From Cellvibrio sp. KY-GH-1 (GTDB lineage: Bacteria; Pseudomonadota; Gammaproteobacteria; Pseudomonadales; Cellvibrionaceae): a stretch of 64,000 nucleotides of DNA. A program made the translations under genes and the position numbers. Numbering within the stretch: position 1 is the stretch's first letter; the number at the start of each line of letters is the position of its first letter. A model generated the notes under the pieces. The model was not told where the DNA came from. It did no database searches and saw nothing but the letters and a program-made list of their open reading frames with translations. Of this stretch, positions 47,827 through 63,024 are shown in pieces. The stretch is from assembly GCF_008806975.1 (NCBI RefSeq), contig NZ_CP031728.1:310001-374000 (forward strand), in the 5' to 3' direction.

Positions 47827-48558
47827 ATGTCGATAATCAGGGTCATGTTAAAAAAGGGAATGCCAGCTTTTTGTTTGCTATTTATGGTGGCCGGTATCTA
47901 TTTTTTTAACAGTAAGGAGGCGGCAACCGTAAAATCCTATTGGTTGTGGAAAGAAAGTGATTTGCGTTTTGTGTCTGCAGGGGATCAGTTATACCTGTAT
48001 CAAGGGGATTATCTATTGGAGGGGAGCTCGCGGGATTTTGTAAAGCGAGGTGTTTCCCCGTCCGCCCGCTTTAAGCAACATTCCCTTATTCTGCTGGTGC
48101 GCCTGTATAGAATAGAAGATGTTGAACGATTGGTGTTTCATCTCAGGTATTTGCTGAGTGAATGGAAGTTAAAAGGCGTTGAAATTAAAGAGATTCAGCT
48201 GGATTATGATTGTGCTTCCGCGCACTTGGCAGATTATTCCAGCTTTTTAAAGCAGCTTGCTGCTACCCTTAATAATAATGGTCAAGGGGATGCGGTCATG
48301 CTGAGTGTCACAGGGCTGGTGACTTGGTTAACGGATAACCCTGCTGCGCTGGCTGATGTGTCCCGCAATGTAAGTTACATACATTTTCAGTTGTACAACA
48401 ATTTTTTTCCGCTACCGAATATCGCTAATTACTTGCATCATATTGGTAATTACAAACACCCTTATAAACTTGGAATAACAATGGCTAAGCCTTTTCAAAC
48501 ATTGGAGTTTTCGCTAAATGAATATTATCAAGGAACCACAATTTTCCTTAACCGTTAA
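47827..48558 (+). CDS. DUF3142-like exported protein
   Basis: 243 residues from the ATG at 47827, which has GGGAAAGG upstream; an ATG at 47809 has no room for a ribosome site. N-terminal hydrophobic anchor (about residues 10-27) then an alpha/beta domain with VKSYWLWKESDLRF, EIKEIQLDYDCASAHLADYS and VSYIHFQLYNNF, resembling DUF3142 proteins (TIM-barrel-like, possibly glycan related). The downstream gene starts 41 bases inside its end. Confidence 0.62.
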   Translation: MSIIRVMLKKGMPAFCLLFMVAGIYFFNSKEAATVKSYWLWKESDLRFVSAGDQLYLYQGDYLLEGSSRDFVKRGVSPSARFKQHSLILLVRLYRIEDVERLVFHLRYLLSEWKLKGVEIKEIQLDYDCASAHLADYSSFLKQLAATLNNNGQGDAVMLSVTGLVTWLTDNPAALADVSRNVSYIHFQLYNNFFPLPNIANYLHHIGNYKHPYKLGITMAKPFQTLEFSLNEYYQGTTIFLNR

Positions 48559-51043
48559 TATCGGAACTGTAAGGAAAAATTGTTTAGCGGTAATGATTGG
48601 TACGCTGCTTGTGGGCTTTCCCGCATTAGCTTGCGGGCCTGAGTACGATGCACTGGAAACAGATATGCTTTCTACGCTTCCCTTTGATCCCGCCGCTCCA
48701 AAAGGTAAAGACAGTTTTTATATTTTTGAGCAGTTTATTGAATCGTCAATCAGCAAGTCTGATGAAGTTGATAATCGCACTATTCAAAAGCAAAAAGACG
48801 CCGATTTTCTCGCCGCTATCGGTAATGCGCTAAGCCAATCCGGAAGAAAGATAACGGTTGCCTTTGCAACTGAGTCATCCGCTACTATAAATCAGAATGG
48901 TGGTTGTAATTACGAGCGCTACAGCAGTATTTATGATTTGGTGATAAATAGCGCGGTTCCTATTAAGGATATATCTGTTGCAGATAATAAAGCGCCGGAC
49001 GGACTGGGTTCGCCGACCTACCAACAATTTTTATCCTCTCATAGTAGTGTTTATTGGTCGCTACGGTTTTGCAAAAAGGAAGGGCTGACTCCAGCGGGTT
49101 TTGCTTATGAGCTTGATCGTTGGCATGAACTTAAGGCAAAACTGATAAAAATGAGTGAAAAGGAACCTTTGCGTTATGTTGCCCAGATCTATTTGGTGTG
49201 GGGTAGTTTTAACTATGGTGAATTGGATGATGCCAAAAAATACTTGGCAGATATCCCTGTGCAAAATCTCAATGTTCAGCAGCATAGTCTAACGAGTCAG
49301 CTGCTATCTGTTTTAGGTGGAACCCCGGGCGAAAATGCTGAAAGTGCTAAAGCTCAAGCTGATATTTACCTTCCCTTGATGGATAAGGATTATTACTGGG
49401 GGCGTTGTCAAAGTAATAATGTTGATTCAATTCAAGCGTTTGCTTCCCGGCTTGGCGCTTCGTCGCTTGATAAGGCTGAAGTGGTTCGGTTAATGAGCGC
49501 AAGGTTTGAGTTGTATGAGAGTTGTGCTTCTGCCGAGGCGCTAACTGCAAGTGCAGAAAAATTTTCGGAAAATAGCGGCTCCGAGTTTGATCTTTATTTG
49601 CAAGCCGCTGCAAATTTTTATCTCAATAAGAATAAAGAATCCGAATTACTATTTAACGAAATAGCCAAAGGGTCGAATAGCCAGTTGCGTGATCTGGCTG
49701 CCTATATGAGTGCCCGTATTAGTTTAATTGATGCTCAACCAGCGGAGGAGTACCTGGAGTTTTATGAGTCGCCCGAGCAGCAAGAAGAGGCTAAAGTTCG
49801 GGCTTCAGTAGCTATTGAGCGGCTGAACCAATTCACCCAGGATTACCCCGATAGCAAATATGTTGCTTCGGCTCAAGGGTTGATGCGTCGGGGCTATTGG
49901 CTGGTTGGTGATAACGTTAATTACAATGCTCTGTTGCGTGTATACAGCGATGGTGTTGTGTCGCCTGTTTTGAAAAAAGCGGTGTGGCAAAAAAGTGATA
50001 CTGAATTATTAGAAAATACCCTGGTTGAATATTGGCGATTTGCTTCGTTTGACGCAACCATTGATTCCCTTGCCCCCATCCGCTTTCTATTGGCAAAGGA
50101 ACTGTCGGATAGTAATACTCTAGCGTCAGCGTCCGCTCCTGTAAAACGCTTAACTCAATTTATAGCCTTGGTTGACGCATATAAGGAGCAGAAGTATGCG
50201 CGTGTTGTTGACGAACTCTCTACGAAAGTGGAATTGAATGAAGCCGAACACTTGCTGCTGTTGCGTGCGCTGGAAGCAAAAGGTGATTGGCAGGTGGCCA
50301 TTGTGCGTTGGCGCGACACTATTAAATACCAATACCACTATAATCTGCATCGTCATGCGGACTACGAAATCGCGCGAATTGTGGCTGCCAAACAAGGTGT
50401 TGAGGGATTATTCCTGAATAATGTTATGGAAAACGGATTGATTAAACAAAATTACCTGGCATCGCTGTGCGATATTGAGCTGCAAAAAAAATCATTGGGT
50501 AATCCATTAATCAGTTTGGATAACAAGCACCTACTGTTTGCGGATATCGCCAAGCGTTATCTATATAACGGAGATTTTGAATCCTTGCAGGCGTTGATGT
50601 CATCGCACACCGATGAATTGATTCAGGAGTATGTGGCAATTCGAACGGCGGTAAAAAACATCGTTGCCAAACAAAAGCTGGGTGCGGCTTATATGAATGT
50701 AGGTTATTTCATGAAAGTTCATGTGGCGCCGCTGCATAATTTGCCCTTGGCATTGCAGCGGGAAGATCTTCCGGAATCTTGTGCACAAACATTAACTGCA
50801 CAAGATAAAGAAACGCCTTTTAGCTATTTCAACAAGGCAATGTCCTTGTTTAAGTCTGGTAAGGACGAAAACGAAGCAAAAACACTCCATTTCCTCACTA
50901 TGTGCGGCAAGGTTGGTATTGAGGGTTACAGCTGCACTTGGGGGTACGGTAAGGAGGGAATGACTAGTGAGGCCGCTTTTAAATTGTTGCATCGGAAATA
51001 TGCTAACAGTAACTGGGCTGAGAAAACCCCGTATCACTATTAG
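48518..51043 (+). CDS. exported protein of unknown function, helical repeats
   Basis: 841 residues. N-terminal signal-type segment (about 20-40: LAVMIGTLLVGFPALACGPE); Cys39 sits after ALA, not a perfect lipobox. The rest is helical with TPR/SEL1-like features and no recognised enzyme motif. ATG 48518 has TGGAG upstream and overlaps the end of the DUF3142 gene. Closely linked to it and to the upstream CadC-like regulator, so they likely work together at the cell envelope. Large size and lack of known domain make it a real unknown. Confidence 0.7.
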   Translation: MNIIKEPQFSLTVNIGTVRKNCLAVMIGTLLVGFPALACGPEYDALETDMLSTLPFDPAAPKGKDSFYIFEQFIESSISKSDEVDNRTIQKQKDADFLAAIGNALSQSGRKITVAFATESSATINQNGGCNYERYSSIYDLVINSAVPIKDISVADNKAPDGLGSPTYQQFLSSHSSVYWSLRFCKKEGLTPAGFAYELDRWHELKAKLIKMSEKEPLRYVAQIYLVWGSFNYGELDDAKKYLADIPVQNLNVQQHSLTSQLLSVLGGTPGENAESAKAQADIYLPLMDKDYYWGRCQSNNVDSIQAFASRLGASSLDKAEVVRLMSARFELYESCASAEALTASAEKFSENSGSEFDLYLQAAANFYLNKNKESELLFNEIAKGSNSQLRDLAAYMSARISLIDAQPAEEYLEFYESPEQQEEAKVRASVAIERLNQFTQDYPDSKYVASAQGLMRRGYWLVGDNVNYNALLRVYSDGVVSPVLKKAVWQKSDTELLENTLVEYWRFASFDATIDSLAPIRFLLAKELSDSNTLASASAPVKRLTQFIALVDAYKEQKYARVVDELSTKVELNEAEHLLLLRALEAKGDWQVAIVRWRDTIKYQYHYNLHRHADYEIARIVAAKQGVEGLFLNNVMENGLIKQNYLASLCDIELQKKSLGNPLISLDNKHLLFADIAKRYLYNGDFESLQALMSSHTDELIQEYVAIRTAVKNIVAKQKLGAAYMNVGYFMKVHVAPLHNLPLALQREDLPESCAQTLTAQDKETPFSYFNKAMSLFKSGKDENEAKTLHFLTMCGKVGIEGYSCTWGYGKEGMTSEAAFKLLHRKYANSNWAEKTPYHY

Positions 51044-54303: not shown

Positions 54304-54340
54304 AATAATTGAACTCATTAAATTAATCCGGGATATATCC

Positions 54341-55165
54341 ATGACTTTTACATTCGATTTTAACAATAAAAACATTTTAGTGGTCGGCGGTACCAGTGGC
54401 ATAAATCGCGGTATTGCAGAAACGTTTGCCAAGGCTGGTGCGCGAGTAGCAGTAGTCAGTCGCTCGCAGGAAAAAGTTGATGATACGGTGCAATCGCTGA
54501 AAAATTACGGCGCCGCAAATGCCACGGGTTTTTCTGCTGATGTGCGCGAAGTGGACGCGATCAAAGCTGGTATCGATAAAATCGCCGCCGATTGGGGAAA
54601 ACTGGATGTGGTCATATCCGGTGCGGCGGGAAATTTTCCGGCGCTGGCGATGGGTATGTCCCCCAATGGTTTTCGTTCAGTAATTGAAATTGACTTGTTG
54701 GGTACATTTCACGTTATGCAGGCTGTATACCCTCACCTGAAAAAGCCGGGTGCATCGATTATCAATATTTCCGCGCCGCAAGCTGAAATCCCAATGGCAG
54801 GGCAGAGCCATGTGTGTGCCGCTAAAGCGGGCGTGGATATGATTACCCGGACGTTGTGTTTGGAGTGGGGCGCAGAAGGTGTGCGCATTAATTCGATTAT
54901 TCCCGGCCCTATCGATAATACCGAAGGCATGCGGCGTCTTTCACCCAGTGAGGCACTTCGCACAGCGGTTACCAAATCTGTACCACTTCAACGCTTGGGA
55001 TCTACAGATGATATTGCCAATGCTTGCTTATTTTTGGCGTCGGATTTTGCGAGTTACATCAGTGGCGCGGTGATTCCGGTGGACGGGGGTTGGGCGCAGG
55101 GCGGGGCAGCGGTTGTAGGGGCCGGTTTAGCGGAAATGTTAAAATCCACGCCAAAGGCAAAATAG
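54341..55165 (+). CDS. SDR oxidoreductase, DECR2-like 2,4-dienoyl-CoA reductase
   Basis: 274 residues. Rossmann GGTSGINRGIAETFAKAGAR near residues 16-35, ISGAAGNFPALAMG (NAG-type motif), then SAPQAEIPMAGQSHVCAAKA: the usual active Tyr of YxxxK is missing and the Lys is kept, as in 2,4-dienoyl-CoA reductases. PGPIDNTEGMRRLS and SGAVIPVDGGW agree with DECR2 members. It would use NADPH to reduce dienoyl-CoA in breakdown of unsaturated fatty acids. Paired with the hydratase upstream. Confidence 0.83.
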   Translation: MTFTFDFNNKNILVVGGTSGINRGIAETFAKAGARVAVVSRSQEKVDDTVQSLKNYGAANATGFSADVREVDAIKAGIDKIAADWGKLDVVISGAAGNFPALAMGMSPNGFRSVIEIDLLGTFHVMQAVYPHLKKPGASIINISAPQAEIPMAGQSHVCAAKAGVDMITRTLCLEWGAEGVRINSIIPGPIDNTEGMRRLSPSEALRTAVTKSVPLQRLGSTDDIANACLFLASDFASYISGAVIPVDGGWAQGGAAVVGAGLAEMLKSTPKAK

Positions 55166-55670: not shown

Positions 55671-57488
55671 ATGGGATATTTTGATAATAAATCTGCTTCA
55701 CTTTTAAGAACCCTTGGGATTGCCGCTTTAGCACTTTCGAGCTCGCAAGCGGTGTTGGCCAATTGGACTGTTCAGGGCAGCCAATTAATTGATCGTAACG
55801 GTCAGCCATTTGTGTTTCGCGGAGTAACTATTGACCATACCTTGGCTCCCGAAAAAACCGTGCAAGCGATAAAAGATGTCGCGGCTACTGGAGCCAATGC
55901 GGTACAAATCGAATTTCCCATCGCATTTTATAATGGCTTCCCGCGTGAAGTTGCAGCCCAGTTGAAACAAATCGTAGCGGCTTGTAAAGCAAACAAGTTG
56001 ATTTGCGTATTGGAATCCAATGATATTAGTGGGTATCCGGAAGGTACTGGTTCGCAATCTCCCGATATTTATGCTGGTTCATGGTCTTGGGATGATTTTT
56101 TGCCAGTCGTTGCCGGTCAGCAGGATTACATTATTATCGGTTTGGGCAATCAAGCGCTTGGCAATAGCGCGCCGGCTGCCGAATATAAGTCCCGTATGTA
56201 TACCTATTTAAGCAACCTGCGTTCGTCCTTGCCCGGCTTCACTGTAATGGTGGATGGCAATTTGTGGGGCCAGGATGTTGATAAGGCGATGGTTTCTCTC
56301 GCGGAGGAAACTCGCGCTCCTGGAAACGCGCTACAAAACGTTATTTTTTCCATTGATATGTTTGATAAATACTCGAACCCTGAAACGGTTCGTGAATACA
56401 TTGCGCGCTTCAAGGCGATTGGTGCTCCGTTAGTCATCGGTGGGTTTGCACCAACCGCTTATTATCATCCGAACTACAATGGCTCTATGCCGCTAGTGGT
56501 GCCACAACTCCCAGCCGCGTCCGTTATGCAATATGCGCAGGAAGCAGGCGTTGGTTATTTTGCATGGAGTTGGAGTGGTAATAAAAATTCTGCGCTTGAT
56601 TTAGTGAGTAATTGGAACCCTGCGCAGCTAACTACTTGGGGTGATTTAGCACTTAACGGAGTCAATGGAATAAAAGCTACTGCAAAACCTGCCAGCATAT
56701 TTAGTAGTACTAGCAGTTCGAGTAGTAGTTTCAGTTCGGCAAATCTTCCGCCGGTACCCGGCTTTAGTGTAAGCAACTATCCCACTACGTTCTGTAATGG
56801 GCGGGAAGCGGTTGGAATCATCAACGCAAATGCGGACGCAACTATTGACCCGGAAGGTGATGCATTCTCTTGTTCCTGGCAAATTAGCGGTGGTGCATCT
56901 ACATCCGCATCAGCCTGTACTGCCAGTTTCCCAAGCCAAAATAGAATGTACTACCAGTTGACGTTGACGGTAACTGATTCAAAAGGTGCATCTGCACAAT
57001 TAACGAAAACAGTTCAACCGTTTTACGTAGATTGTCCAAGTAGTTCAAGCAGCAGTTCTAGTTCAATTAGAAGTTCCAGCTCAATACCTGATGCGAGTCG
57101 CCCAAGTACTTCTAGCAGTTCTGTGCGTAGTTCCAGCAGCAGCTCAATCAGAACATCCTCTAGTTCTTCCGTTCCTCAAACGACAAAGGCGCAATGCAGC
57201 TATGTAATTAACAGCCAGTGGAATAATGGCTTCACTGCGGCCATTCGCATTAAAAATACCACTAGTACCGCGATCAACGGGTGGGATGTGAATTGGCAAT
57301 ATAGCGACGGTTCAAAAGTCACCAATTTATGGAATGCGACTTTGAGTGGTAGCAATCCATACACTGCAAAAAATCTGAGTTGGAATTCTACAATCCAGCC
57401 TGGCCAAACAGTTGAATTTGGTTTCCAAGGTACCAAGTCGGCTGCAGTCGCTAGCACTCCTGTTGTAACTGGCAGTATCTGTCAGTAA
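55671..57488 (+). CDS. secreted GH5_8-like protein without catalytic glutamates, CBM2 (paralogue 1)
   Basis: 605 residues: signal peptide (1 to about 31), GH5_8 mannanase-like domain (about 32-345), Ser-rich linker, PKD-like Ig domain (about 360-450), long Ser-rich linker, C-terminal CBM2 (about 505-605, [17 protein letters not shown]). The match to GH5_8 is clear (WTVQGSQLIDRNGQPFVFRG; SWSGNKNSALDLV; LTTWGDLALNGVNGIKATAK), but the active site has changed. Arg to Gln79, His to Asn117, acid/base Glu to Gln161 (GLGNQALGN), His to Asp229, Tyr to Phe231, and nucleophile Glu to Gly258 (VIGGFA). So it is not a normal mannanase; it may bind glycan or use other residues. First of four tandem paralogues. 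Confidence 0.88.
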   Translation: MGYFDNKSASLLRTLGIAALALSSSQAVLANWTVQGSQLIDRNGQPFVFRGVTIDHTLAPEKTVQAIKDVAATGANAVQIEFPIAFYNGFPREVAAQLKQIVAACKANKLICVLESNDISGYPEGTGSQSPDIYAGSWSWDDFLPVVAGQQDYIIIGLGNQALGNSAPAAEYKSRMYTYLSNLRSSLPGFTVMVDGNLWGQDVDKAMVSLAEETRAPGNALQNVIFSIDMFDKYSNPETVREYIARFKAIGAPLVIGGFAPTAYYHPNYNGSMPLVVPQLPAASVMQYAQEAGVGYFAWSWSGNKNSALDLVSNWNPAQLTTWGDLALNGVNGIKATAKPASIFSSTSSSSSSFSSANLPPVPGFSVSNYPTTFCNGREAVGIINANADATIDPEGDAFSCSWQISGGASTSASACTASFPSQNRMYYQLTLTVTDSKGASAQLTKTVQPFYVDCPSSSSSSSSSIRSSSSIPDASRPSTSSSSVRSSSSSSIRTSSSSSVPQTTKAQCSYVINSQWNNGFTAAIRIKNTTSTAINGWDVNWQYSDGSKVTNLWNATLSGSNPYTAKNLSWNSTIQPGQTVEFGFQGTKSAAVASTPVVTGSICQ

Positions 57489-57509
57489 ATCAAAATTAAT
57501 TTTTGCAAA

Positions 57510-57534
57510 GCACAGGGCTTTAACAGCTCTGTGC
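57510..57534 (+). other. intergenic hairpin between paralogues 1 and 2
   Basis: GCACAGGGC / GCTCTGTGC 9-bp stem (one G-T pair), loop TTTAACA, no T run. It may stabilise or process the mRNA. Confidence 0.55.
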
Positions 57535-57562
57535 ATTTGTTAACTAATCAAAAGGAAATGCC

Positions 57563-59131
57563 ATGAAAAAATTATTCAGCGCTCATAAATCAAAGATTGG
57601 AAAAGCTATTGCCATTTTAAGTGTAGGGCTTCTCGCAGCACCTGCATTTTCCCTTTCGCCACTTGCCCTCACTTTTTGGAAAGTGCAGGACGGAAAATTA
57701 ATTGATCCGAATGGAAATCCGTTTGTGTTTAGGGGGGTAACCATCAATCACACCTTGGCTCCTCAAAAAACCGTGCAAGCGTTGAAGGATATTGCCGCAA
57801 AAGGCGCTAACTCTGCACAAATTGAATTCGCAATTCAGGGGAGTTTTCCCCGTCCCGTTGTTGCTGAATTACGAGACATCATTCAGACCTGTAAAGATAA
57901 TAAATTGGTTTGCGTCCTGGAGCCCAATGACGGGAGTGGTTATTCGGAGACATTGAATTCGGTAAGCCCAAGCATTATGGCCTATTACTGGAGCTGGAAT
58001 GACTTGCGCGAAGTGCTGAATGGTGCTCAAGGTCATATTATTCTTGGGCTTAGTAACCAGATTCTAGGAAATGTTTATTCGGATTTCGACTATGTTGTAC
58101 GGATGGAAACCTATCTCTCAGAATTTAGAGCAAACTTGCCTTACGGCTTCATGATAATGATCGATGGAAATAAATGGGGTCAGGATAGCGATAAGGCAAT
58201 GTTGCAATTAGCTGCCAGAAACCTCCAGCGAGGTGGCGATTATGCGAATATTATTTACTCCGTAGATATGTTTGATTCCTACACGACTGGGGAATCGGTG
58301 CGCAATTACATTTCGAGTTTTTCCGAACTTAAAGCGCCTTTGGTAATCGGCGGTTTTGCGCCTACCGCATATTATCATCCCTATAACACTAGCCCACGTC
58401 CTGCTGTGGTCTATGATTTGCCTGAAGACTTGGTAATGCAGTATGCGGAGCAGTATGGTGTGGGATACTTTGGTTGGAGTTGGAGTGGTAATGAAAATTC
58501 GGCTTTGGATATGGCGGTGAATTACAATCCAACAAATTTAACCCCCTGGGGAAAATTGCTGTTTGATGGCACGAGTGGTATTAAGGCCACTGCAAAACCC
58601 GCGAGTATTTATAACAGTAGTGCAAGTAGTATCACGAGTAGTTCGATAAACTTTTCTAGCTCCAGTGCGTCTAGTATAAGTGTAGTTAGTTCCTCCTACA
58701 TGAGTTCGGAGCGAGCCCAACCGTCGAGTTCTTCGAGTTCGTTAATGTCTACTAGTAGATCCAGCTCGTCAATTAAGTCTAGCGTTTCTACCGCCAGTTC
58801 AAAGTCATCGTCTAGTTTGGCTGTCACGAAAGCGGTTTGTTCCTATGTGATAAATAGTCAGTGGAACAACGGTTTCACCGCATCTATTCGTATTAAAAAC
58901 ACGTCTACAACCGCTATTAATGGGTGGGATGTGAATTGGCAATACAGCGACGGTTCAAAAGTCACCAATTTATGGAATGCGACTTTGAGTGGTAGCAATC
59001 CATACACTGCAAAAAATCTGAGTTGGAATTCTACCATTCAACCTGGACAAACTGCCGAGTTTGGTTTCCAAGGTACCAAATCCGCTGCTACAGCGAGCGT
59101 GCCTGTAGTATTAGGAAGTATTTGCCAGTAA
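57563..59131 (+). CDS. secreted GH5_8-like protein without catalytic glutamates, CBM2 (paralogue 2)
   Basis: 522 residues: signal peptide (about 1-30), GH5_8-like domain, Ser/Thr-rich linker, CBM2 (about 425-522); no PKD domain. Acid/base position is Gln166 (GLSNQILGN) and nucleophile position Gly264 ([13 protein letters not shown]). His in the third loop is replaced by Asn (EPNDGSG) and His-Met-Tyr by SVDMFD. AAAAGGAAATGCC precedes the start. 74 bases behind paralogue 1, so one operon is likely. The CBM2 DNA is almost identical to that of paralogue 1 over about 113 bases. Confidence 0.87.
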
Positions 59132-59153
59132 TCATTAATCATTTTTCGGACGT

Positions 59154-59179
59154 GCACACAATGGTAAACCATTGTGTGC
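59154..59179 (+). other. perfect intergenic hairpin between paralogues 2 and 3
   Basis: GCACACAATGG-TAAA-CCATTGTGTGC: perfect 11-bp stem with 4-base loop, followed by GCCGGTTTTTTT, terminator-like but weak. It lies between the two genes, 29 bases before the start at 59208. Confidence 0.75.
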
Positions 59180-59207
59180 TGCCGGTTTTTTTAAAAAAGG
59201 AAATTCC

Positions 59208-61064
59208 ATGAAAAGATTATTTTCTCACCGTAAATTATTACTTGTAAAAGCCATAGGGGCACTTGTCTTGGGGGCATCGGCTACATCTGCTTTTGCATTG
59301 TCGCCGGTAGCCTTAACCGGGTGGACGGTGCAAAACGGAAAGTTAATGGATCCTAATGGTAATCCATTTATTTTTCGTGGTGTGACTATTGATCACGGCC
59401 GTGCACCGGATAAAACAATACAGGCACTGAAGGATATTGCCGCACTGGGTGCGAATTCTGCACAAATTGAATTTCCATTAAATTGGACGGTTCCCTTTAC
59501 TTATCCGCGTACGGCGGTAACCGAATTAATTGGAATTATCAAAACCTGTGCAGAAAATAAATTGGTGTGTGTACTGGAACCGAATGATGTTGCTGGTTTC
59601 GGTGTGGTAGATGGCGTCGCTAGTCCCTCCAACACGGCTTCTTTATGGGATTCAAGCGATATGAGAATGGCTTTGTCGGCACCTGGCGTGACGAACCATA
59701 TTATTATCGGTTTTGGTAACCAACATTTTGGTCATGGCACAGAACAATTTTACAGAGACACAGCCCAGAGCTATACCCATGGGATACTAAGTTCGTTACC
59801 GCCGAATTTTATGATAATGCTAGACGGAAGCGATTGGTCGCAGGATACCACCAAGGCAATGCATTATGTTGCACAGGGTATCAGTCAGGACAGTACATTA
59901 AAAAATCGTGTGATTTTTTCTGTGGATTTTTTTGATGATTATCAATATCCGGAAAAAGTACGTGATTACATAGCCAGTTTTGCGGAAATTGGTGTTCCAC
60001 TGGTTGTTGGTGGATTCGGCCCAGCGCCTTATTACCACCCGTTCAATACGACTATTCCTGTGCAACTAAATGCACCGCAATTGCCGGCTGCCTCAGTTAT
60101 GCAATATGCGCAGCAATATGGAGCTGGCTATTTTGGATGGAGCTGGAGTGGTAATGAAAATTCTGCATTGGATTTGGTTGCTAATTGGAATGCAAATGCT
60201 CTGACCAATTGGGGTAATTTATTATTTAACGATGTGAACGGCATTAAAGCAACTGCTAAGCCAGCCAGCATTTTTAATGGTACTACCAGTAGCGCTAGCA
60301 GCAGCTCTGTTGCTTCAAATAACTTTCCTGTCGCAGTTATCGATAACGTTGCGATGGAGTACGTTCGCTGTGGAGTGGTTTATGGTAAGGCCTCCGCATT
60401 GCGTTCGACGGATTCTGATGGTGATGCGCTGAGTTACAAGTGGACTGTGAGCGGCCCCGAGAACTATACCTCTACTAACTCGGAAATTCGGTTTTCAATG
60501 TTTTGGCCATTGGTTGAATACAGGGTAAATCTGGAAGTGAGCGATGGAAAGGGTGGTGTCAGCGTAGCGACTACGGTGATGAAACATTCTTACTCTAACG
60601 TTTGTCCGCAGCCATCTTCTTCCGCATCGAGCCATTCCAAATCGACTAGCAATTCCTCAAGCTCTATTAGATCTTCCAGCTCAGTGCAAACCTCTAGTTC
60701 ATCGCTTAGCTCATTGAATTCATCGAGGAGTTCATCGAGGAGTTCATCGAGCACTGCGGCGGTTGGCAAGTGCAGCTACATAATTAACAGTCAATGGAAT
60801 AATGGCTTTACCGCAGCTATTCGCATAAAAAATACCACCAGCACTGTGATTAGCGGTTGGAATGTGAATTGGCAATACGCAGATGGTTCCAAGGTTACTA
60901 ATTTGTGGAACGCCACATTGAGTGGAGCTAATCCTTACAACGCAAAAAACCTGAGTTGGAATTCAACTATTCAACCGGGGCAAACCGTTGAGTTTGGATT
61001 TCAAGGTACTAAATCCGCTGCCGCAGCAAGTATTCCTGCAATTACCGGCGCGGTCTGTGAGTAA
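59208..61064 (+). CDS. secreted GH5_8-like protein without catalytic glutamates, CBM2 (paralogue 3)
   Basis: 618 residues. Signal peptide (1 to about 31), GH5_8-like domain, PKD-like domain (FPVAVIDNVAMEYVRCGVVY on), Ser-rich linker, CBM2. Acid/base position is Gln172 (GFGNQHFGHG) and nucleophile position Gly269 (VVGGFGPAPYYHP). Other site changes repeat those of paralogues 1 and 2 (SAQIEF; EPNDVAG; SVDFFDD). AAAGGAAATTCC precedes ATG 59208; the frame is open upstream to 59172 without a ribosome site. Same function class as its neighbours. Confidence 0.87.
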   Translation: MKRLFSHRKLLLVKAIGALVLGASATSAFALSPVALTGWTVQNGKLMDPNGNPFIFRGVTIDHGRAPDKTIQALKDIAALGANSAQIEFPLNWTVPFTYPRTAVTELIGIIKTCAENKLVCVLEPNDVAGFGVVDGVASPSNTASLWDSSDMRMALSAPGVTNHIIIGFGNQHFGHGTEQFYRDTAQSYTHGILSSLPPNFMIMLDGSDWSQDTTKAMHYVAQGISQDSTLKNRVIFSVDFFDDYQYPEKVRDYIASFAEIGVPLVVGGFGPAPYYHPFNTTIPVQLNAPQLPAASVMQYAQQYGAGYFGWSWSGNENSALDLVANWNANALTNWGNLLFNDVNGIKATAKPASIFNGTTSSASSSSVASNNFPVAVIDNVAMEYVRCGVVYGKASALRSTDSDGDALSYKWTVSGPENYTSTNSEIRFSMFWPLVEYRVNLEVSDGKGGVSVATTVMKHSYSNVCPQPSSSASSHSKSTSNSSSSIRSSSSVQTSSSSLSSLNSSRSSSRSSSSTAAVGKCSYIINSQWNNGFTAAIRIKNTTSTVISGWNVNWQYADGSKVTNLWNATLSGANPYNAKNLSWNSTIQPGQTVEFGFQGTKSAAAASIPAITGAVCE

Positions 61065-61078
61065 ATAAAATAAATTTG

Positions 61079-61101
61079 GCCTCACGTTGTGGGGCTTTTT
61101 T
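61079..61101 (+). terminator. weak terminator between paralogues 3 and 4
   Basis: GCCTCAC-GTT-GTGGGGC hairpin followed by six T. It may lower expression of the fourth gene rather than end the operon fully. Confidence 0.65.
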
Positions 61102-61138
61102 ACGTTAGTTGAGAATTAACCACAAGGAAAAATGAATT

Positions 61139-62929
61139 ATGAGTTCGTTATTAAAAAATTCGATTAAGCAATTCAAAAAAATCGGTCTGGGTTTGGCGGT
61201 TTTGGCCGTTACCCAATCAGCATATTGTGATTGGACGGTGCAAGGGAGTCAGATTATTGATCCTAATGGCACACCCTTTGTGTATCGCGGTGTGAATTTG
61301 GGAATATTGCCTGATGACGCATCGTTACCGTTTGTGATGAGCGATATCGCCTTTTCGGGCGCAAACGCAGTGCGCATTCCTGTGCAGGGTATGGGTAATG
61401 ATCGTTTGACGCGGTATGTAGAGCAGTGTAAGCAAAATAGATTAGTTTGCGTACTTACGGATACCAGTATTTACGGTTATGGAGATAATTTTGGACCCTC
61501 GAATCAGTCAGATATCTTGTACGCATGGTTAAGCCGCAAGCCGGTTCTTGATGCCTATAAAGATTACGTCATCGTCGATATTGCCAGTGGCCCTAGCGGG
61601 AATGGTGGAAATCTTATAATGCAGTTTTACGAGTTTATCGTTGTGCTTTTACGGCTACAAGGCGTTACGAATCAATTAATGATTAGTGGTTCGAATTGGG
61701 GGCAGGACTGGAGTAACGAACTGCGCGATAATGCCGAGTACATACGTTCCAAAGATAGTTTGAACAATGTTATTTTTTCCGTGCATATGTATGAAGCTTA
61801 TAGCGATCCCGCGACTATTCGTTCCTATCTGAAGTCTTACCTTGATCGTGGCTTACCGATTGTTGTGAGTGAGTTTGGCCCGGTTCGTCGCGATAGAACT
61901 AATGAGACCAGAAACCCCTATGTGAATAATACGGTTGCTGTAGATTCCATCATGGCGACGACTCAGGACTTGGGTGTTGGTTATTTGGGGTGGACCTGGA
62001 GTGGTTACACCACTAAATTTACAGATTTGAATATGTTTACCGCGTTTGACCCAAATAAGATTACTCCCTGGGGAACTCGCTTGATCGACGGCGAGAATGG
62101 CATTAAGGCAACGGCCAAACGTGCATCGCATTTTTCAGCAGGCAGCGCTTCATCGCGTAGCTCTTCCAGCGTGTCCAGTGAAAATCTACCGCCTTACGCG
62201 GTCATTACGGGTCGTGTTGTAAATCCTGCGTGTGGTTCGGCATTTGCGGAAATGAGCGGCGCCGATAGTAAGGATCCAAACAATGATCCACTGACTTATT
62301 CGTGGCAAGTGTATGACTCTTCACTTTATTCTTATCAAAATTTCACTGGAAGGGATTTGAATTTTCCTATTCGTTCAAACGTTGTTTATCAATTTATATT
62401 AGATGTGGAGGATGGTCGCGGTGGAAGAAGTACGGCGACTAAGGATATGAGCCTCAATTTCCCGAGCGCTTGCCCGCCACCGCCAAGTTCATCCTCATCG
62501 ATGCGCAGTTCGAGTAGTCGTTCATTCAGTTCAAGCAGCAGTTCGTTTAGCTCGCGTTCCAGTGTCAGTTCGCGGCCGTCGAGCAGCTCGGTATCTTCAC
62601 GCAGTTCATCCAGCGCTGGAGCGACCAAAGCACAATGTAGCTACGTTATTAATAGTCAGTGGAGCAATGGGTTTACCGCAAGTATCCGCATTAAAAACAC
62701 CAGCAACACGGCGATTAATGGTTGGGACGTGAATTGGCAATACGCCGATGGCTCAAAAGTGACTAATCTGTGGAATGCTACCTTGAGTGGATCTAATCCG
62801 TATTCGGCAAAAAATCTAAACTGGAATTCTACGATCCAACCAGGGCAAACCGTAGAGTTTGGGTTCCAGGGGAGTAAATCGTCCGCTGCGGCTGCGGTTC
62901 CTGCGGTAACGGGTGCTGTGTGCCAGTAA
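61139..62929 (+). CDS. secreted GH5_8-like protein with partial active site, CBM2 (paralogue 4)
   Basis: 596 residues. Signal peptide (about 1-30), GH5_8 domain (about 31-335), PKD-like domain, Ser-rich linker, CBM2. Closer to true GH5_8: Arg is kept (AVRIPVQG), His and Tyr in SVHMYEAYS are kept, nucleophile Glu245 is kept (VVSEFGPV). But the acid/base pair Asn-Glu is Ser-Gly here (DIASGPSGN; Gly151 in place of Glu). Retaining hydrolysis would be crippled. This gives an order of decay across the four genes. Confidence 0.86.
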   Translation: MSSLLKNSIKQFKKIGLGLAVLAVTQSAYCDWTVQGSQIIDPNGTPFVYRGVNLGILPDDASLPFVMSDIAFSGANAVRIPVQGMGNDRLTRYVEQCKQNRLVCVLTDTSIYGYGDNFGPSNQSDILYAWLSRKPVLDAYKDYVIVDIASGPSGNGGNLIMQFYEFIVVLLRLQGVTNQLMISGSNWGQDWSNELRDNAEYIRSKDSLNNVIFSVHMYEAYSDPATIRSYLKSYLDRGLPIVVSEFGPVRRDRTNETRNPYVNNTVAVDSIMATTQDLGVGYLGWTWSGYTTKFTDLNMFTAFDPNKITPWGTRLIDGENGIKATAKRASHFSAGSASSRSSSSVSSENLPPYAVITGRVVNPACGSAFAEMSGADSKDPNNDPLTYSWQVYDSSLYSYQNFTGRDLNFPIRSNVVYQFILDVEDGRGGRSTATKDMSLNFPSACPPPPSSSSSMRSSSSRSFSSSSSSFSSRSSVSSRPSSSSVSSRSSSSAGATKAQCSYVINSQWSNGFTASIRIKNTSNTAINGWDVNWQYADGSKVTNLWNATLSGSNPYSAKNLNWNSTIQPGQTVEFGFQGSKSSAAAAVPAVTGAVCQ

Positions 62930-62998: not shown

Positions 62999-63024
62999 TG
63001 CCCCGCACTCGCGGGGCTTTTTTT
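62999..63024. terminator. terminator after paralogue 4
   Basis: GCCCCGC-ACTC-GCGGGGC followed by seven T: strong stem, ends the four-gene cluster. It also lies about 40 bases beyond the stop of the convergent barrel gene. Confidence 0.92.

Follow-up and report, generated by a model that had tools for sequence, protein, structure and literature searches.

Double displacement in family GH5 depends on a defined set of active-site residues. The closest described relatives of the four proteins considered here, W1–W4, are the GH5_8 endo-beta-1,4-mannanases (1bqc, 3wsu/4y7e, 4fk9 and a GH5_8-CBM10-CBM2 enzyme of C. japonicus), with which they have the barrel and the secreted CBM2 layout in common; they differ in that the catalytic Glu pair is lost or halved, the beta7-alpha7 loop is longer by 10–14 residues, and part of the aromatic platform is gone. 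Non-catalytic GH5 modules are already known. Aspeborg et al. (2012; PMC3526467) report several, among them three lipoproteins near GH5_8 that resemble W1–W4 in having an inactive GH5 module derived near GH5_8, and from which W1–W4 are set apart by description through their CBM2 C-terminus, layout and group size. The same paper describes Rsi24C-GH5 of Clostridium thermocellum, a distant GH5 module without the acid/base that interacts with cellulose but leaves it uncut and that lies on the extracellular side of a putative biosensor whose anti-sigma domain is intracellular, whereas W1–W4 are secreted with a CBM2. It also describes GH5_30, all of whose members lack the catalytic residues and several of which were misannotated as mannanase; this is a whole non-catalytic GH5 clade, as is clade A below, but it is fungal and belongs to a different subfamily. 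In searches of open-licence papers, no title or abstract opening described the present group, and we regard its two clades, A and B, as a new, large variant of the non-catalytic GH5 module.

Four tandem genes with a GH5_8 barrel and a CBM2

W1–W4 are four intact, consecutive plus-strand open reading frames of Cellvibrio sp. KY-GH-1, lying in the window (the whole 64,000-nucleotide stretch of NZ_CP031728.1 that was analysed). The features of the region are as follows:

54338..55165, + strand: SDR (short-chain dehydrogenase) gene that borders the conserved locus on the left
55671..57488, + strand: W1, 605 aa, site QNNQDFGW (open reading frame, profile and alignment)
56151..56153, + strand: W1 codon 161 (Gln), GH5 acid/base position, computed from 55671
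56442..56444, + strand: W1 codon 258 (Gly), GH5 nucleophile position, computed from 55671
57563..59131, + strand: W2, 522 aa, clade A pseudo-GH5_8 and CBM2, Q166 and G264
59208..61064, + strand: W3, 618 aa from ATG, Q172 and G269 (ATG numbering)
61139..62929, + strand: W4, 596 aa, clade B, Glu245 kept as nucleophile, Gly151 at acid/base
63000..63017, no strand assigned: candidate shared terminator behind W4, a GC-rich stem with a T run on both strands, found as a consensus match

W1 comprises a signal-like N-terminus, a clade A pseudo-GH5_8 domain (about aa 30–345), a weak PKD-like match, Ser linkers and a CBM2 (507–604). W3, for which an alternative TTG start at 59172 is possible, also has a clade A domain, a weak PKD-like match and a CBM2, and W4 has the same layout with a clade B domain; unlike these three, W2 lacks a PKD match. 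The original prediction of four tandem genes with a GH5_8 fold and a CBM2 was borne out: each protein matched Pfam Cellulase (E 3e-10 to 1e-15) and CBM_2 (PF00553, E 1e-34 to 1e-32), and the top PDB matches for both W1 and W4 were GH5_8 mannanases, with which their models superpose at 1.8 A (28–36% identity in structural alignments). The barrel thus rests on sequence and fold for W1 and W4, and on alignment for W2 and W3. NCBIfam gave only a sub-cutoff match, covering the linker and CBM2. By eye, the signal regions of W1–W3 are free of Cys, and Cys30 of W4 falls outside a canonical lipobox. Terminator-like sites were about as frequent as in shuffled sequence (9 vs. 9.5), and promoter-like matches were fewer than in shuffles.

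Replaced catalytic residues in two clades

We aligned W1–W4 with 240 proteins from the database, namely the best 120 of 437 matches in one search and the best 120 of 246 in another (244 rows in all), and read the eight canonical GH5 site positions (79, 117, 160, 161, 229, 231, 258 and 301 in W1 numbering). Sorted by eight-site pattern, 91 rows carried the canonical RHNEHYEW, 120 were assigned to clade A and the other 33 to clade B; these counts are of database clusters rather than independent events, from searches that share words with their queries. The rows include near-copies of the window proteins (P0008 is identical, and P0001 and P0101 differ at 2 and 4 residues, respectively). A third search, of which the best 120 of 212 matches were used, contributed 89 further proteins: all were canonical except for one of clade B, leaving 88.

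The site reads QNNQDFGW in each of W1–W3, so that the first three genes are indeed altered alike, and RTSGHYEW in W4. The acid/base Glu on beta4 is replaced in all four (Q/Q/Q/G), and the nucleophile Glu on beta7 is Gly in W1–W3 and kept only in W4; every residue quoted beforehand (Q161/G258, Q166/G264, Q172/G269 and G151/E245) proved correct. W1–W4 are therefore each a GH5 domain with incomplete catalytic machinery. Across clade A the site is mostly QNNQ[D/E]FGW vs. RHNEHYEW in the canonical rows, with position 161 being Gln in 115, Asn in 4 and Arg in 1 of 120 rows, and position 258 being Gly in 115, Ser in 4 and Asp in 1. The mean entropy of the eight sites within clade A was 0.34, vs. 1.44 for random eight-column sets (3/20000 as low), and since this is far below the random sets, the changes are not random drift. 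In clade B, position 258 is Glu in 33/33 rows, and position 161 is Ala in 22, Gly in 8 and Glu in 3. Judged from these residues, clade A has lost both catalytic Glu and clade B only the acid/base side; the loss of GH5 machinery that had been proposed is thus upheld by conserved substitutions at the canonical sites. We considered whether a misalignment could hide an alternative catalytic Glu and rejected this, as the beta4 and beta7 motifs align unshifted and the models superpose; no other Glu residues emerged as the true catalytic pair, and the canonical positions align unambiguously. On residue grounds, GH5 double displacement is excluded for W1–W3 and unlikely for W4.

The four genes had been treated as one set. 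Instead, three belong to clade A and the fourth to clade B, where only the acid/base side is lost. Trees were built on samples of rows, 54 with the site columns included and 47 with the site and loop columns removed. In the latter, clades A and B were supported at 100/100 and 100/100, and all 15 canonical rows fell on one side (89/92, not starred); in the former, shared A+B ancestry had a support of 17. Rows P0150–P0152, which hold both Glu with the beta3 His changed to Met, form the deepest clade B branch (P0151 in the first tree only). These trees indicate that W1–W3 and W4 are two pseudoenzyme lineages and that W4 is a member of a separate clade, not a milder copy of W1–W3; descent of both from one common long-loop ancestor is plausible.

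Probable glycan binding and a possible new chemistry

Our preferred reading, to which we give rather better than even credence, is that W1–W4 are anchored to cellulose and bind glycans in a rebuilt cleft without cleaving them, probably holding plant-wall sugars. W1–W3 and W4 would descend from a GH5_8 beta-mannanase and be exported without retaining its cleaving activity. The CBM2 would anchor the protein to cellulose, and the old cleft, where Gln/Gly have replaced Glu and the beta7-alpha7 loop is longer, would hold a wall glycan uncut, putatively mannan or another beta-1,4 chain related to it, perhaps in decorated form. Tandem copies with diverged loops could cover several wall glycans, and the result would be that wall material, enzymes or oligosaccharides are retained near the cell. 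The proteins would be a natural counterpart of laboratory substrate-trapping mutants, in which Glu is changed to Gln or a small residue. Binding is favoured because Asn160 (in clade A) and Trp301 stay, because the replacement of Glu is itself of this trapping kind, and because 4y7e, in which Ala occupies the nucleophile position that is Glu in 3wsu, is titled as a mannohexaose complex. Glycan binding by W1–W4 is a reasonable inference. PMC8952944 reports cellulose binding by the CBM2 and CBM10 of GH5_8 enzymes.

The Trp-rich platform had been described as intact, and this held for Trp138, 199, 299 and 301 (retained in 114–118 of 120 clade A rows) but not for Trp58 (91/91 canonical rows; 0/120 in clade A and 0/33 in clade B), the aromatic at 59 (91/91 vs. 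1/120) or Trp203 (89/91 canonical, 0/120 in clade A, 33/33 in clade B); Trp90, present in 88/91 canonical rows, is mostly lost (Trp in 6/120 clade A rows, any aromatic in 74/120). With Trp58, the aromatic at 59 and Trp203 gone, the clade A ligand may not be mannan.

Clade A has also gained residues. As anticipated for the acids of QIEF and SIDMF, Glu81 is found in 118/120 rows (Val in 91/91 canonical) and position 229 is acidic in 119/120 (Asp in 85, Glu in 34); Tyr264 (120/120), His266 (119/120) and Pro267 (120/120) are likewise fixed. The beta7-alpha7 loop (positions 258–286) spans 25–29 residues in clade A and 26–27 in clade B vs. 15 in 91/91 canonical rows, and in the enlarged set no canonical row (0/179) exceeds 18. 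The near-invariant polar residues Glu81, Asp/Glu229, Tyr264 and His266 would also be in keeping with a new catalytic centre, which argues against a pure binder, and a new catalytic pair may lie elsewhere. Clade A could accordingly be a new enzyme that uses Glu81 (beta2) and Asp/Glu229 (beta6), helped by Tyr264 and His266 of the enlarged loop, on another glycan or bond; we think this unlikely, as the alternation of Asp and Glu at 229 would be odd for a catalytic residue and the papers searched showed no precedent. A broader version strikes us as similarly doubtful: six of the eight site residues would have been swapped in concert and an acid pair (Glu81, Asp/Glu229) and a Tyr-x-His-Pro loop gained, so that clade A would be a new enzyme class on the GH5_8 scaffold with a new reaction on a cellulose-associated glycan, and clade B, in parallel, a nucleophile-only glycosyl trap or transferase. 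A new activity could arise from the rebuilt loop and acids.

For clade B, the retention of Glu245, His216 and Trp287 (33/33 each) and of Arg79 (31/33), beyond what a pure binder would seem to need, fits a half-active retaining enzyme, as do the variability of the acid/base-side positions 107, 109 and 151 and the presence of both Glu in the deepest branch; Arg253, Glu256 and Pro260 are also fixed (33/33 each). W4 might then form a covalent glycosyl-enzyme from activated donors, or, lacking an acid/base, serve as a transferase or covalent trap. We hold this to be improbable, however, since natural polymers lack an activated leaving group and the residues may persist for structure or binding alone.

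Distribution, locus and selection

Clade A comprised 16 genes in 10/21 Cellvibrio-type genomes (the genus), and clade B was found in 2/21. A survey of the family (144 genomes) gave 52 GH5_8 matches outside the genus, of which 45 were read, all (45/45) RHNEHYEW. A wider host range was considered and set aside: among 274 sampled genomes of the class, the one that carries the window was alone in giving a match at E 1e-60 (the unmatched genomes named in the result are of other families; a further 253 are counted without names). Source labels of clade A proteins, where a genus was given, were mostly Cellvibrio among the best 120 of 437 matches. A canonical GH5_8 gene is also present in 9/10 clade A genomes, the tenth (G008) being 79% complete. 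This coexistence, together with the precedent of GH18-derived xylanase inhibitors cited in PMC3526467, would suit W1–W4 as decoys or protection factors, covering the polysaccharide or binding to inhibitors of the true mannanases, a role that we consider highly improbable.

One chromosomal locus holds the clade A genes in 9/10 of these genomes, and spread as a mobile element is unsupported. In six genomes (G000, G001, G010, G013, G014 and G019) the left flank is the SDR gene, preceded by enoyl-CoA hydratase and argS, and the right flank consists of DUF5666/DUF6502 or glutamine cyclotransferase/DUF502 genes; the right flank was seen in G002 and G011, and the SDR flank, followed by a contig end, in G008. 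Copy number at the locus is four in G000, two in G013, one clade B and one clade A gene side by side in G011, and one in the others. G005 carries two clade A copies elsewhere, and G010 and G014 have a second location in common. The search of related genomes for the array, as had been suggested, recovered a conserved locus; a set of four at that site occurs only in G000. Twelve genomes have the SDR gene without an adjacent clade A or B gene, and 11 were read (G020 was left out), counting open reading frames of at least 130 aa and those of up to 200 aa only if matched. In G004, G006, G007, G017 and G018 the usual right-hand neighbours come next after the SDR gene, no further frame being listed in between; in G016 another gene intervenes; and in G003, G005, G009, G012 and G015 the right neighbours differ.

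We compared dN/dS (NG86, catalytic domain) among the 16 clade A genes (120 pairs, not mutually independent, 87 of them saturated) and nine canonical genes (36 pairs). Clade A values were 0.047–0.247 in the 33/120 finite pairs and equally in the 9 with dS<2 (0.047–0.127 in the five with dS<1.5), vs. 0.023–0.178 for canonical paralogues of the same genomes (32/36 pairs finite, 19/36 with dS<2). The single usable W1 pair gave 0.159 at a dS of 2.54. We dropped the idea of faster evolution in clade A than among the canonical enzymes, because the full pair set gives overlapping ranges; by these estimates, clade A is clearly under purifying selection, not measurably different from that on canonical paralogues. 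The dN/dS comparison that had been suggested was thus informative for clade A and not for clade B, whose sole DNA pair is saturated and for which the case for constraint is its invariant residues. Selective maintenance, as originally proposed, is further supported by the conserved substitutions, the fixed locus and the CBM2, carried by 120/120 clade A and 33/33 clade B rows with five Trp invariant in 153/153. Key residues are lost, yet we give almost no credence to W1–W4 as decaying, functionless mannanase copies, a view largely refuted for clade A by its dN/dS of 0.047–0.247, by the same replacement residues across a clade of 55% mean (39% minimum) pairwise identity, and by the absence of in-frame stops from the matched stretch of all 16 clade A genes recovered from genomes.

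If W1–W4 are non-cleaving binders, such proteins are candidate glycan-binding reagents. Clade A accounts for at least 117 database clusters at 90% identity (best 120 of 437 matches). These cannot work by the GH5 mechanism, and some are source-labelled 'mannan endo-1,4-beta-mannosidase' or 'man5B'. Together the clades offer a series from nature: clade A shows one route by which the enzyme family was disarmed, complete loss, and clade B the other, loss of the acid/base; the clade B rows that still have both Glu may represent an intermediate. The genomes concerned mostly keep the canonical enzyme too. The role of non-catalytic glycoside hydrolases in biomass breakers thereby becomes directly testable.

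ORFs around the pseudo-GH5_8 array

Two ORFs lie outside the four tandem secreted pseudo-GH5_8 genes (W1-W4):

48518-51043, + strand: 841-aa ORF, left of W1-W4
63069 to beyond 64000 (ends at 64757), - strand: 563-aa ORF, with W4 on one side and the DUF5666 gene on the other

We found no Pfam match for the 841-aa ORF at an E-value of 0.001, nor for a 275-aa piece of the 563-aa ORF, and the latter was not observed at the corresponding place in three Cellvibrio-type genomes (G001, G010 and G013).

GH5 genes elsewhere in G000

Outside the window, the Cellvibrio-type genome G000 carries further GH5 ORFs:

C1:3282764-3286261: 1792-aa ORF with three GH5-like stretches
C1:249972-250715 and C1:260819-261562: two 1023-aa ORFs with a GH5 match

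Two fragments of the 1792-aa ORF read RYNEHYEW and --NEHYEW at the eight canonical site positions, and an equally long ORF with a match was present in G019, another such genome. The two 1023-aa ORFs, ~10.8 kb apart, had identical GH5 scores and possibly represent a recent duplication.

Clade B relatives retaining both glutamates

In the alignment, the clade B database proteins P0150, P0151 and P0152 combined both catalytic Glu residues with the long loop, and their β3 His was replaced by Met. These three proteins may represent an intermediate.
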